NCBI RefSeq assembly: GCF_004570975.1
Contig: NZ_SPPC01000004.1
Coordinates: forward strand, 124,001 to 188,000
Source of the DNA: Barnesiella sp. WM24
Lineage (GTDB): Bacteria > Bacteroidota > Bacteroidia > Bacteroidales > Muribaculaceae
Reading direction: 5' to 3'
Length of the DNA: 64,000 nucleotides
In this document: piece after piece, positions 22,596 through 40,291 of the stretch
How the letters are laid out: every line of letters starts with the position of its first letter
Numbering within the stretch: the first letter of the stretch is position 1
Made by a program: the position numbers and the translations under genes
Notes under the pieces: generated by a model
What the model saw: only the letters and a program-made list of their open reading frames with translations
What the model was told of the DNA's origin: nothing
Database searches by the model: none

Positions 22596-22603
22596 TAAAT
22601 TTG
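22596..22603 (+). promoter_or_regulatory. -7 box of RNA element copy A
   Basis: TAAATTTG fits TAnnTTTG. A transcript starting near 22610 would carry RNA element A and then the lipoprotein gene at 22931. Confidence 0.6.
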
Positions 22604-22656
22604 CAATTGATTCACCATATGTCATAGAGTTGACATTGTGAGTCAACATTTTTATG

Positions 22657-22875
22657 AAAAGGTGTTATTGAAATTTTATCTTCGGTTCTCAAACTTGGTC
22701 GTCTGAAAACTGCATGAAGATGAGATTGGCAATAGCACCTGCATCGGTAGCTTGTATCCTGCCATTATTGGCAGACTATATAGCTATATCGGTGTGGGGC
22801 TATTGTTTTATCCATGCAGTTAGGTAGACCAAGACCTGAGACCGGATAAAACAAAATACAATCCTCACACCTTTT
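22657..22875 (+). ncRNA. Structured leader RNA, copy A of a three-copy family
   Basis: The closing helix P1 pairs AAAAGGTGT (22657-22665) with ACACCTTTT (22867-22875). The inner helix P3 pairs GTTTTATCC (22805-22813) with GGATAAAAC (22844-22852). Inside it a 4-bp hairpin AGGT/ACCT (22822-22825/22834-22837) presents GACCAAG (22827-22833), which pairs with CTTGGTC upstream (22694-22700), a 7-bp pseudoknot. A central block AATAGCACCTGCATCGG (22731-22747) is almost the same in copy B. GCACC there can pair with GGTGT at 22791-22795. The element ends 55 nt before a lipoprotein start codon. The same helices occur with different bases in copies B and C. Confidence 0.75.
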
Positions 22876-22930
22876 TTGTGTTCAACAACAAAGACGTTTC
22901 AATGGAGGATGAGAAACACAGTACAATAAA

Positions 22931-23755
22931 ATGAAAACATTTAAGTTTTTCGCATTGGCTGTTTCAGCAATGCTGGTTAGCCCGTCAATCACATCTTGCA
23001 GTAATGATGACGACAAAGACAATGGAGGTTCAATCACCCAACAAGGCATAGGGCTGCCGCGTCATCTTGAAAAAGTGAATTACAGCGGTTCATATAATAA
23101 TGGCGCTGTATACGACAATTTTACCTATGATGACCAAAACAGAATCACCTCCTTCACCGACGCAAGTAATGAGACCATAAAATGCACCTACTCAACCTCA
23201 TCAATCACACTTGGCGGATTGAATTGCACTTTAACCGGAAACCGTATAACAGAGATAAAGGATAACTATGGTGGAATATTTAGATTTGAATACAACAGTA
23301 ACAATCAGCTGATTCACGCGACCGAGACCATTTCAAACTCTTTCTTGAACATCTCTTCTGAGATTAATTACAAATGGGAGGGAGGAAATCTGATACAATA
23401 TACTTCTACTGAAAAAGAACATGGAGAGGAGTCGCAATCATATGATGTAAAATTTACGTATGACGGCACAAAATCATCAGCACCGATATTGATGATGCTT
23501 AATGCCTCTTGGCTTAATCCTTTATATTTTGAAATCAACAGCGATGTTTGTCTACTTGGTATGATGGGCTATTTTGGAAATATGATAACCGAACTACCTG
23601 TCAGAGTTGAAATCACACAAACCAACGACAAACGAAACTTCATTTATGAACTTGAATATGAACTTGATTCATCCAACTATCCTAAAAGTGCCCATTATAT
23701 AAGAACAGGCAGCGAAGGACAAGCAAGCGGCACATACACTTATGTCTGGAAATAG
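22931..23755 (+). CDS. DUF4595-like lipoprotein (YD-repeat-like strands)
   Basis: The 274-aa protein has a lipoprotein signal ending in SITSC followed by SNDDDKDNGG, the acidic export signal typical of Bacteroidetes surface lipoproteins. The body is a series of short beta strands with YD-repeat flavour (NFTYDDQNRITSFTD, FRFEYNSNNQLIHATE, VKFTYDGTKSS). That fits DUF4595, a family abundant in Bacteroidales with unknown function. It is preceded by RNA element A. Confidence 0.72.
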   Translation: MKTFKFFALAVSAMLVSPSITSCSNDDDKDNGGSITQQGIGLPRHLEKVNYSGSYNNGAVYDNFTYDDQNRITSFTDASNETIKCTYSTSSITLGGLNCTLTGNRITEIKDNYGGIFRFEYNSNNQLIHATETISNSFLNISSEINYKWEGGNLIQYTSTEKEHGEESQSYDVKFTYDGTKSSAPILMMLNASWLNPLYFEINSDVCLLGMMGYFGNMITELPVRVEITQTNDKRNFIYELEYELDSSNYPKSAHYIRTGSEGQASGTYTYVWK

Positions 23756-28079: not shown

Positions 28080-28087
28080 TAACTTTG
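28080..28087 (+). promoter_or_regulatory. -7 box of RNA element copy C
   Basis: TAACTTTG, with TTTG 18 bp upstream (28058-28061), fits the -33/-7 pattern. The transcript would start near 28094 and run through RNA element C into the BspA-like gene. Confidence 0.65.
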
Positions 28088-28191: not shown

Positions 28192-28448
28192 AAAGCGTTT
28201 ATCCGCGCTGATTCTTGACCATCTGGAATTCTCGCAAAATTTCATAACAAAGTCAAGGGTTGAGCAACGGTAGATGCCCGTGGATATGTAATTATCTTGC
28301 TTTCGGCATGATATTTCGTGAGAAATACAGCCGGACGCTTTGATTGCATATACAGGCGTGGGCTTCTGCGTTGCCGTCCGACTTTGTTAGGGCAATGCGA
28401 GAAGCCTCAGATGGTAGGGACGGTAACAGATACAGATTCCTACGCTTT
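28192..28448 (+). ncRNA. Structured leader RNA, copy C of a three-copy family
   Basis: P1 pairs AAAGCGT (28192-28198) with ACGCTTT (28442-28448). P3 pairs TTGCCGTCC (28371-28379) with GGACGGTAA (28418-28426). The hairpin GGGC/GCCT (28390-28393/28404-28407) exposes TGCGAGAA (28396-28403), which pairs perfectly with TTCTCGCA (28229-28236). All helices use bases different from copy A, while the loop and its partner match copy B. It is the most GC-rich and longest copy, with an extra GC-rich hairpin region between promoter and P1 (about 28110-28170). It ends 146 nt before the BspA-like start. Confidence 0.72.
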
Positions 28449-28594
28449 TCCATTTATAAACCAATCGCGCCGACAAGAGGAGTCCATAAGGCAAACATAC
28501 TGCTTTACCCTTAAAAACACAGATTGAAATAATATCCTAAAATTTAGCTTGATAAACCACCAGAATCATACTAATATTATAATTTACGGACAAA

Positions 28595-29971
28595 ATGAAA
28601 AAATTTTTACTTACAATGCTTTTGGGGCTGTTAACATTCCCCTCATTCGCGCAGGTATTTGATTTTACCTACGAAGGAAAAACATTGCGCTATTATGTAA
28701 TTGATGAAGACTCCAATGAGGTTGAGGTTGAGAAAAGTTCTACGTTGCTATCAGGTGACCTCATCATTCCTTCCTTAGTAAATTACGACAATTGCAATTA
28801 TATAGTCACCCACATTGCCAACAAGGCGTTCTATAAATGCAGTAGCCTCACTTCTGTGAAAATTCCCAATTCTGTCGAAACTATTGGCGAATCTGCGTTT
28901 ATGTATTGCGATAACCTTACTTCTATAGAGATTCCCAATTCAGTCAAGACAATTGGTGAATCGGCGTTCATTGCTTGCAGCAGTCTTGTTTCTATTGATG
29001 TAGATCATGAAAATATACATTATAAATCTATCGAGGGTGTGCTTTATACAGAAAACGCAACAACCCTAATTCAGTATCCTATGGGGAATAATAATACATC
29101 ATATACAATTCCCAATTCAGTTGTATCAATTGGTGCGGGTGCATTCCACGCTTGCAGCAGCCTCACTTCGGTGGAGATTCCCAATTCTGTCGAAACTATT
29201 GGCAAATATGCGTTTATGTATTGCAATAACCTTACTTCTATAGAGATTCCCAATTCAGTCAAGACAATTGGTGAATCGGCGTTTAAGCAATGTAATAGTC
29301 TTGCTTCAATAGTAATTCCCAATTCTGTCGAGACTATTGGCGAATCTGCGTTTATGTATTGCCGAGGTCTTGCCTCTGTTGAGATTTCCAATTCAGTTGA
29401 GACTATTTGTAAAAAGATGTTCTATGGTTGCAAGAGCCTTGCCTCTGTGGAAATCCCCAATTCAGTCAAGACAATTGGTGAATCTGCATTCAGTTATTGC
29501 CATAGTTTTATTTCAGTTGTAATACCAGATAATGTCACGATTATCGGAACTGAGGCTTTTTACTATTGTGAGGCTCTTAGAGATGTAACTCTCCCAGCTA
29601 ACCTTGATGAGTTGGGGTATAATGCATTTGGCAACTGCTCACGCATCAAGAAAATTAAGTATCGCGGAAGAACACTTGTTTGGACAGACGCAATCATGTT
29701 CGCGGATAATATTTACAAAGAAGCTACTTTGTGTGTCCCCAAAGGAACTACTTCACTCTTTCAGACTGTAGCTCCATGGAAAAATTTTGTTAATATCATA
29801 GAGGTAGAATATGAATATTCGGGGATTGACGCAGTGGAAGCTGATGCTTGCGAGACGGTGGAGATTTACAATCTCAACGGCGTGTATGTAGGCAGCGACA
29901 AGAGCAATCTTTCTACTGGCGTCTATATTATCCGTCGGGGCGATAAGGTCGAGAAGATTGCGGTAAAATAA
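28595..29971 (+). CDS. BspA-like leucine-rich repeat surface protein
   Basis: The 458-aa protein has a signal peptide (MKKFLLTMLLGLLTFPSFAQ) and about twelve 23-residue LRR_5 repeats of the form IPNSVETIGESAFMYC..LTSVE. A C-terminal strand-rich tail (VEIYNLNGVYVGSDKSNLSTGVYIIRRGDKVEKIAV) resembles a type IX secretion sorting domain. BspA-like proteins bind host or microbial ligands on the cell surface. The repeats are close to identical at DNA level: about 115 bp at 28860-28975 recur at 29174-29290. It is flanked by 154-bp direct repeats and preceded by RNA element C. Confidence 0.88.
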   Translation: MKKFLLTMLLGLLTFPSFAQVFDFTYEGKTLRYYVIDEDSNEVEVEKSSTLLSGDLIIPSLVNYDNCNYIVTHIANKAFYKCSSLTSVKIPNSVETIGESAFMYCDNLTSIEIPNSVKTIGESAFIACSSLVSIDVDHENIHYKSIEGVLYTENATTLIQYPMGNNNTSYTIPNSVVSIGAGAFHACSSLTSVEIPNSVETIGKYAFMYCNNLTSIEIPNSVKTIGESAFKQCNSLASIVIPNSVETIGESAFMYCRGLASVEISNSVETICKKMFYGCKSLASVEIPNSVKTIGESAFSYCHSFISVVIPDNVTIIGTEAFYYCEALRDVTLPANLDELGYNAFGNCSRIKKIKYRGRTLVWTDAIMFADNIYKEATLCVPKGTTSLFQTVAPWKNFVNIIEVEYEYSGIDAVEADACETVEIYNLNGVYVGSDKSNLSTGVYIIRRGDKVEKIAVK

Positions 29972-39504: not shown

Positions 39505-39966
39505 TTATTTATAACGCTCCCAAGTCCAAAGGTCATAGTAGCCAAAAGCATCGTGTCCATCCCATTCATCCTCTGACGGATCATAGTCTTCAGAGGGGAT
39601 AGCGTATCTTTGCCATACGATTTTATTCTGTGAGACTGATTTGACTCTCATTTTTTCAATTTGAGTCTCACCATAGAAGTCGATAGTAATATTAACCCAA
39701 CCATCTTTATAAGACCAGTTGAATTTATATCCTTCATGATTGTTTTGATAATCGGTCAAATTTTCATAACCGACTCCAGTCCCGTTAGCATTGACAACTA
39801 AAATGTCATTGTCGCCATCTTGCGCCCATGACCCCACAATAATAGAGGTTAATTCATCGCCTGCTGGTTCATCGTCATCATCGCTACAGCTTGTAAAAGC
39901 CATTGACATAATGACACACAGAGCTACAGCGACCAGTGACTGTAGATGTAAAAGTTTGTGTTTCAT
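39505..39966 (-). CDS. Lipocalin-like lipoprotein
   Basis: The 153-aa protein has a lipoprotein signal ending in AFTSC followed by SDDDDEPAG, a surface export signal. The body begins IIVGSWAQDGDNDILVVNANGTG and has short strands ending in WTWERYK, a pattern of lipocalin-like (DUF4488/5004-type) lipoproteins. Function unknown. It follows RNA element B. Confidence 0.68.
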   Translation of the reverse strand: MKHKLLHLQSLVAVALCVIMSMAFTSCSDDDDEPAGDELTSIIVGSWAQDGDNDILVVNANGTGVGYENLTDYQNNHEGYKFNWSYKDGWVNITIDFYGETQIEKMRVKSVSQNKIVWQRYAIPSEDYDPSEDEWDGHDAFGYYDLWTWERYK

Positions 39967-40025
39967 TGCAAAACAATGTTTTAATGCTTCACAATCCCTA
40001 CAAAGCGGTTAAGATTTGGATAAAG

Positions 40026-40243
40026 AAAAGGTGTGGGATTGTACTCTGCATATCCCTTTTAGTAGGCTTCTCGCATTGCCTTAGATAGAAGATAGACAGC
40101 AAACCCACACCGAGAAGCTATATAGATACCCGATAAGGGGTAAGTATAAGCAACCGATGCAGGTGCTATTCTCGTTATCTTTCTATCTATTAGCGAATTT
40201 TGCGAGAATTTACTAAAAGAAGATAATTCAAATAACACCTTTT
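40026..40243 (-). ncRNA. Structured leader RNA, copy B of a three-copy family
   Basis: Plus-strand coordinates, read on the minus strand. P1 is AAAAGGTGT (40243-40235) with ACACCTTTT (40034-40026). P3 is CTGTCTATCT (40099-40090) with GGGATATGCAG (40056-40046), one mismatch and two G-U pairs. The hairpin AGGC/GCCT (40081-40078/40067-40064) exposes TGCGAGAA (40075-40068), which pairs perfectly with TTCTCGCA (40208-40201). The block AATAGCACCTGCATCGGTTGC matches copy A closely, and AGGCAATGCGAGAAGCCT matches copy C almost completely. It ends 59 nt before the lipocalin-like gene. Confidence 0.75.
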
Positions 40244-40283: not shown

Positions 40284-40291
40284 CAAAATTA
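40284..40291 (-). promoter_or_regulatory. -7 box of RNA element copy B
   Basis: TAATTTTG on the minus strand with TTGACA 21 bp upstream. The transcript would enter RNA element B about 34 nt later. The rest of the gap (40292-40443) shows nothing else. Confidence 0.65.

Follow-up and report, generated by a model that had tools for sequence, protein, structure and literature searches.

Three places in a 64,000-nucleotide window of the Barnesiella sp. WM24 genome (the whole stretch of DNA analysed here, positions 124,001 to 188,000 of contig NZ_SPPC01000004.1) raise the question of what kind of RNA precedes the genes found there, how it folds and what it may do. A preliminary description had proposed that copies A, B and C form a three-copy family of pseudoknotted leader RNAs with covariation. 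The strings and coordinates it gave for the copies are present in the sequence. Copy A (+ strand) has a promoter box of the form TAnnTTTG (TAAATTTG) at 22596-22603, a core domain running from segment s1 through s4 at 22657-22875, and behind it a gene at 22931-23755 for a lipoprotein-like protein of 274 aa with a Pfam match to DUF4595 (E 1.4e-7; 32.1 bits, slightly below the 34.2 cut-off). Copy B (- strand) has its box TAATTTTG at 40284-40291, its core at 40026-40243 and a gene at 39505-39966 whose 153-aa product is lipoprotein-like by a crude signal rule. Copy C (+ strand) has its box TAACTTTG at 28080-28087, its core at 28192-28450 and a gene at 28595-29971 for a 458-aa BspA-type LRR_5 protein (Pfam E 8.5e-84). 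Minimum folding energies are -91.4, -80.9 and -105.1 kcal/mol for A, B and C, giving z scores of -10.9, -8.3 and -6.7 against dinucleotide shuffles, and none of 200 shuffles folded as low for any copy.

Covariance-model searches of Bacteroidales genomes detected many further copies, so that the figure of three does not stand. A blastn search with copy A, to which B is related by this measure, matched the window's genome at six places, which include A and B themselves, and 23 of 61 relatives; one weak match outside the Muribaculaceae (L046) was judged to be due to chance and left out. Model R1, built from 32 copies, missed copy C but was positive in 184 of 397 Muribaculaceae genomes, representing 26 of 30 genera, and at E<=1e-3 in 44 of 393 Bacteroidales genomes, four of them Muribaculaceae and 40 spread over 20 other families according to the labels of the search tool. 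Most of these matches were inspected at sequence level (G052 was left out), and even those of 34-60 bits kept their segments in the same order. Model R2, a wider model from 75 diverse copies, scored A at 196.8, B at 151.0 and C, which lies outside its seed, at 48.0 bits (E 9.4e-7). It found 14 copies at E<=2e-4 in the window's genome plus one at 0.065; copy numbers here are lower bounds because scoring in the large runs was limited to the top five or six candidates of each genome, and E-values come from a shortened model calibration. R2 was positive in 14 of 395 genomes of the class, five of them outside the order Bacteroidales, and in 6 of 345 genomes of the phylum, namely the window's own and five others of the same class; these matches include compact forms of ~160-170 nt. 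Antisense matches were also obtained (A 22660-22740, B 40161-40240 and many other copies), but the first hairpin is nearly palindromic, which accounts for such weak antisense scores, and they are not extra copies. At one locus, L145, two elements lie in tandem on the - strand (2402-2593 and 2771-2959, ~180 nt apart), and the sole ORF called behind the first encodes 57 aa.

The RNA was not found among known families in the material searched. With Rfam 15 at gathering thresholds, the whole window gave tRNA only, 13 divergent loci gave one tRNA only and 16 further loci gave nothing, so that no family reached its gathering score in the regions scanned, as the preliminary description would have it; in a permissive scan of copy A the best score was 15.8 bits, for a family whose gathering score is 74. 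The openly accessible literature searched, PMC8040213 and PMC2864571 included, yielded no recognised account of this RNA. Among the candidate structured RNAs of the same phylum described by Weinberg in 2010 (PMC2864571), the motifs listed in Rfam, for example Bacteroidales-1, Bacteroides-1, Bacteroid-trp, 6S-flavo and Flavo-1, do not match the leader; Bacteroides-2 and GUCCY-hairpin have no Rfam number in the table of that paper, and the leader could therefore be identical with one of them. Our best reading is that this class of leader RNA is new and absent from the public RNA library Rfam.

Position argues that the elements are leaders. Among 43 elements, 40 could be tested for a promoter (three lay too near a contig end), and 39 of these non-redundant elements carry a TAnnTTTG box 20-150 nt upstream, whereas a control stretch lying 290-420 nt upstream has one in 4 of 40 cases, in support of the box proposed for A, B and C. 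We assigned to each element, by a rule of our own, the longest ORF with an ATG 12-190 nt behind it. An ORF was assigned to 126 of 131 elements (five were without one), and its ATG lies a median of 55 nt behind s4, the end of the core, at 50-60 nt in 69 and at 45-65 nt in 83 of the 126. With a predicted box upstream and this spacing to the ATG, the elements are therefore read as transcribed leaders of the next gene: the sequence has a promoter box upstream, a fixed position before the start codon and the same strand, as expected of a cis-regulatory leader. The comparisons show the predicted conserved unit to comprise promoter box, a structured domain of 160-300 nt, a 3' hairpin and the start codon. 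By eye, a further 5' hairpin between box and s1 (for example window 22605-22655), often with GCCATAGAGTTGGC, looks conserved, its outer stem being variable. A stretch like AGCCCCACCAATAACATTTTTT is conserved immediately 5' of the box in A, L002, L004, L025, L026, L030, L036 and L037, and AGCCCCAC within it is the reverse complement of GTGGGGCT, a part of the core.

Within the domain the strands follow one another as s1 t1 V1 k1 V2 t2 s2, then an apical arm, then s3 t3 V3 k2 V4 t4 s4. Alignment of homologues shows a predicted structure of two hairpins, one formed by s1:s2 and t1:t2 and the other by t3:t4 and s3:s4, whose loops are joined by V1:V4, k1:k2 and V2:V3. In copy A (+ strand throughout), s1 at 22657-22670 can pair with s2 (22730-22740) or s4 (22867-22875), as judged from pair counts and sequence; t1 at 22674-22683 forms the 5' hairpin stem with t2 (22716-22723; swap test and pair counts). 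Of the variable loop strands, which we call barcodes, V1 (22684-22690) has its partner in V4 (22837-22843), an assignment that draws on the loop swap test and on the counts for C-type copies described below, and V2 (22709-22715) pairs with V3 (22814-22820; swap test and sequence). Between them, the k1 hairpin (22690-22705) bears the loop CTTGGTC, which pairs with GACCAAG in the k2 hairpin at 22822-22837 (sequence and swap test for k1, folding and pair counts for k2). In the second hairpin t3 (22805-22813) pairs with t4 (22844-22852) by pair counts, and s3 (22791-22799), with 98.7% of helix cells paired, has s4 and the strand preceding it as its partner. The preliminary description had taken s1:s4 as a closing helix P1, t3:t4 as an inner helix P3, and the k2 hairpin as a 4-bp hairpin with a pairing loop. 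P1 and P3 are real, but the structure was incomplete: it missed the 5' hairpin (s1:s2 with t1:t2), the copy-specific loop-loop helices V1:V4 and V2:V3, and a hairpin on the 3' side with a loop able to pair with the bases immediately 5' of the 3' strand of P1.

Elements were compared in a swap test, in which the pairing energy of two strands from one element is set against that of strands exchanged between elements; after 26 antisense or partial rows had been removed from the alignment (A2), 60 of 102 rows were dropped as redundant, leaving 42 elements below 72% identity. The two loops, each ~30 nt, pair almost end to end, with -26.2 kcal/mol for own against -10.5 kcal/mol for swapped partners, and the own partner was the best in 41 of 42 elements. 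The stems behave likewise, t1:t2 giving -8.2 against -4.6 and t3:t4 -10.5 against -6.1 kcal/mol, while control pairs were flat and t1:t4 gave nearly no difference. In 75 sequences, aligned by fitting to the two-hairpin structure, 93.5% of cells are paired, compared with 78.5% when shuffled and 43-52% when slid, and 41 of 43 pairs show two-sided changes; t1:t2 is paired in 95.9% of cells and t3:t4 in 95.8%, with two-sided changes in 9 of 9 t3:t4 pairs. The compensating changes first noted among A, B and C are thus borne out in larger sets, and covariation grew as more homologues were aligned, in support of a family of structured, pseudoknotted leader RNAs.

A single sequence folds differently. 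Its energy minimum is a nested rod (mean -82.1, against -69.3 when the two hairpins are folded with their loops left unpaired), in which t1 pairs with t4 and the proposed pseudoknot becomes an ordinary nested helix; in the alignment t1:t4 shows a mild excess, 80.7% against 75.1% shuffled. When loop pairing is added, the two hairpins fall below the rod in all 42 elements, topological cost being ignored, and the ~16 loop-loop base pairs between closed hairpins, together with the kissing core, may be topologically strained. We rejected the rod as the only fold, given that t1:t4 is flat in the swap test and that t1:t2 and t3:t4 are so largely paired. On the comparative evidence we prefer the fold in which two hairpins are clamped together through their loops, a second, rod-like state being possible, and for this reason the pairing loops are counted as a pseudoknot, in agreement with the preliminary description.

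The outer strands have more than one candidate partner. Predicted complementarity of s1 to both s2 and s4, and of s4 to both s1 and s3, is supported, as is that of the strand before s4 to the 3' hairpin loop close to the start codon, although this support can only in part be separated from shared sequence: s1 resembles s3 and s2 resembles s4, so part of the competition among s strands is automatic. Helix s1:s4, which stands outside the fitted model, is paired in 90.0% of cells against 84.2% shuffled. In copy A, s4 with its 5' flank ATCCTC (22861-22866) occupies 22861-22875 (+; 3'-loop swap test, pair counts and sequence), and this flank is competed for by s3 and by the loop GAGGAT (22905-22910) of the 3' hairpin GTTTC/GAAAC at 22896-22917 (+; swap test and sequence). 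The corresponding loop GGGATTGT of B at 39991-39998 (- strand) has its partner ACAATCCC at 40035-40042, giving 8 bp; A has 6 bp, and C 6 bp including one G-U. Across the 42 elements the 3' loop and s4 flank give -10.0 kcal/mol for own and -6.9 for swapped partners, the own partner being best in 10 and in the top 5% in 15, and the stems around the loop differ between copies. A 3' pseudoknot before the start codon is thus moderately supported, less strongly than the paired loops of the two hairpins.

The loop helices differ from the rest of the domain in how they change. Among 22 C-type copies from Muribaculaceae the core segments are on average 86-97% identical and the apical arm 64%, compared with 46% for V1, 38% for V2, 48% for V3 and 51% for V4. 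Pairing is nevertheless kept in 96.0% of V1:V4 and 92.8% of V2:V3 cells. Of the 15 barcode pairs, 14 show two-sided changes, and the loop-loop covariation score is 0.551 against 0.149 when shuffled. Barcodes alone carry covariation within this set: the two-hairpin stems are nearly invariant and give none because they hardly vary, and the kissing core k1:k2 is without covariation because it is invariant in 22 of 22 rows. In copy C (+ strand) the C-type counts place V1 (ACCATCTG) at 28218-28225 opposite V4 at 28408-28415, the k1 loop TTCTCGCA at 28229-28236 opposite TGCGAGAA at 28396-28403, and V2 (TAACAAA) at 28245-28251 opposite V3 at 28383-28389. A-type pairs with core identity above 0.9 likewise differ more in their barcodes than in the apical arm; in three bins of core identity this holds for 38 of 50, 137 of 159 and 224 of 241 pairs. 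These comparisons show V1/V4 and V2/V3, as predicted helices, to be copy-specific yet complementary.

Barcodes are also reused. Across 122 A-type elements we counted 54 V1 and 65 V2 alleles in 97 combinations, the same alleles recurring in different combinations, and the limited pool of alleles is common to several genera; the 60 further A-type elements taken in were the next best-scoring ones listed and not a random sample. In element L175, V1 is mismatched to its own V4, and this V4 is identical to that of L200, an element from a different genome. Orthologues of B keep their barcode (mean 0.96 for three pairs in the 0.85-0.9 bin of core identity). A barcode locked to its gene was rejected as a rule, given that L204 and L209 precede proteins 84% identical with differing barcodes and L025 and L066 have both barcodes in common before unrelated proteins. 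Within genomes, avoidance of shared barcodes was not significant (0 of 49 pairs share both, 0.5 expected, P 0.60). Frequent replacement of the leader type, reuse of alleles and the L175 mismatch point to probable recombination between copies through the fixed core.

The genes behind the leader are varied. After one of 125 downstream proteins (the second ORF at L145, 57 aa) had been left out, the remaining 124 matched 55 Pfam families, with LRR_5 in 16 and TerB in five, while further families such as glycosyltransferase, TonB and CsgG were each found in one to three proteins; no shared pathway was found among them by Pfam. The 21 C-type proteins fall into ~14 unrelated groups, with six LRR proteins, one trio and twelve single proteins. 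By our crude signal-peptide rule, 62 of 126 proteins are signal-like, 31 lipoprotein-like and 33 neither; export, which the preliminary description had attributed to the product of each copy and which applies to A, B and C, is in the wider set a common tendency and not universal. A link to defence systems was considered and dropped, PADLOC matches being scattered and the commonest found in 3 of 124 proteins. For the glycosyltransferase gene we found nine homologues in 8 of 37 genomes, five with a leader: all five homologues 57-100% identical have one, and none was found in the available DNA of the four that are 44-50% identical, so that the association with this gene is conserved among changing leaders. 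These five leaders score 49 to 168 bits, and each is of a different leader type or barcode. Small proteins that are or resemble TerB (five of the 124 reach the Pfam limit used, the rest being judged by eye) stand behind the leader at L094, L027, L054, L068, L081, L135 and L138, in several genera and families. At L030, the place behind the leader where a gene would normally stand is taken by direct repeats of ~50 bases (GGATAAACATCTGAAAGATGTAATCTGCATAACCGGG...), with an LRR-type ORF ~300 nt further on.

A cis-regulatory function is argued for by the fixed spacing, by compensatory change in all classes of helix and by the retention of leaders before orthologous genes, and the competing s1-s4 and 3'-loop pairings suggest a switch near the start codon. 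From the sequence comparisons we consider it probable, with some reserve, that the elements are a new class of cis-regulatory mRNA leader with competing folds that acts as a conformational switch. The loop-loop clamp would select one of the competing s pairings; the pairing selected would free or block the flank of s4, so that the 3' pseudoknot near the start codon is made or broken, and likewise a terminator-like s3:s4 hairpin followed by a T run; the resulting state would set expression of the downstream gene. Since barcodes match within one molecule, each transcript would close its own clamp, and the loop helices could drift freely or under drive, provided that they match within that molecule.

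A riboswitch sensing a metabolite or ion, in which the s, t and k core would be a ligand pocket and the barcodes ordinary unconstrained helices, would fit the leader position, the conserved unpaired stretches of the core and the competing helices. We consider it rather unlikely, in that a riboswitch usually marks one pathway, which the 124 proteins do not share, and ordinary helices leave it unexplained that barcodes change faster than the apical arm. A mobile or gene-converted cassette of promoter and leader, its structure mainly the signature of an element spreading before genes, is a real possibility, which we hold somewhat short of even. It would account for C-type cores so alike before ~14 unrelated groups of protein, for leader types that differ on orthologous genes, for barcode alleles recurring in new combinations and for the L175 mismatch, such as a single crossover would leave. 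On the other hand, no plasmid or phage matched by blastn, and just two of nine IMG/VR contigs pulled out by two k2/s3 patterns hold the element, at L311 11428-11644 (145 bits) and L305 71-331 (50 bits), so that some copies may travel with prophage-like DNA; the precise ATG spacing and two-sided compensation argue for selection on function and not for movement alone. Of two other patterns tried, a 17-base one gave 17 IMG/VR matches that proved to be other genes and was dropped as a sign of phage carriage, and GGTGTTATT...CACACCTTTT, its spacing set too short, had no match in the window's own genome.

The loops might instead act in trans, copies dimerising with themselves or being read by small RNAs with matching barcodes: loop1 of one RNA molecule could in principle find loop2 in a second molecule of its kind, and the allele pool is common to several genera. 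Searched against 1.4-kb flanks on each side, however, the barcodes gave no overall excess of matches over swapped loops, and we regard action in trans as improbable. Small local excesses of loop2 do occur in the flanks, for example of antisense 8-mers within 200 nt downstream (0.21 vs 0.06). Two loops and paired variable segments around a fixed core also recall the IS110 bridge RNA, a guide that targets DNA. A role of that kind is very improbable here, as the match of each loop is to the other loop and not to the DNA around the element, the ATG spacing is fixed and no recombinase family is prominent among the 25 commonest of the 55 Pfam matches; guidance to flanking DNA was rejected, since matches over 1.4 kb on either side showed no excess overall.

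Among known systems, the nearest mechanical likeness, short of a claim of membership, may be the extended kissing complex that CopA forms with CopT in plasmid R1. There the pairing of two hairpin loops goes further than a simple kiss, so that four helices meet in a junction, and between relatives the loop sequences change while staying complementary. In the leader, too, the paired stretch of the two loops exceeds a simple kiss and shows compensatory change. CopA and CopT are distinct molecules, one the sense and the other the antisense RNA, whereas the leader has both hairpins in one molecule before chromosomal genes, and its kissing core is fixed and flanked on each side by a variable helix. 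In all 42 elements compared, both paired loops belong to one RNA, and A and C gave no blastn match among plasmids. With riboswitch and attenuator leaders it shares its own promoter box, a structured 5' leader, competing helices and closeness to the start codon, and it differs from them in its copy-specific loop helices, the want of a common pathway and the want of an Rfam match in the regions scanned. ROOL, GOLLD and OLE are included in Rfam, where the leader has no sequence match to them, and they are not known as short leaders of assorted genes. Like the leader they are large bacterial RNAs of unknown role, and PMC12286853 reports these ornate RNAs as homo-oligomers.

The probable switch may also be part of something larger. 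Tentatively, and with less confidence than in the switch itself, we propose a barcoded system in which a dozen or more copies stand before unrelated accessory genes, each with an address in two freely combinable parts (V1/V4 and V2/V3), by which its clamp is kept private or is found by a matching partner, new addresses arising by recombination through the kissing core. If so, nature would have provided a series of RNA locks orthogonal to one another. The leader family also offers a clean natural test of how a helix can change rapidly in sequence without loss of pairing. If the mechanism is as we infer, its copy-specific complementary loops would be ready-made orthogonal RNA parts, and a large share of gut Bacteroidales would control surface and secreted proteins by an RNA device that is absent from the public library.
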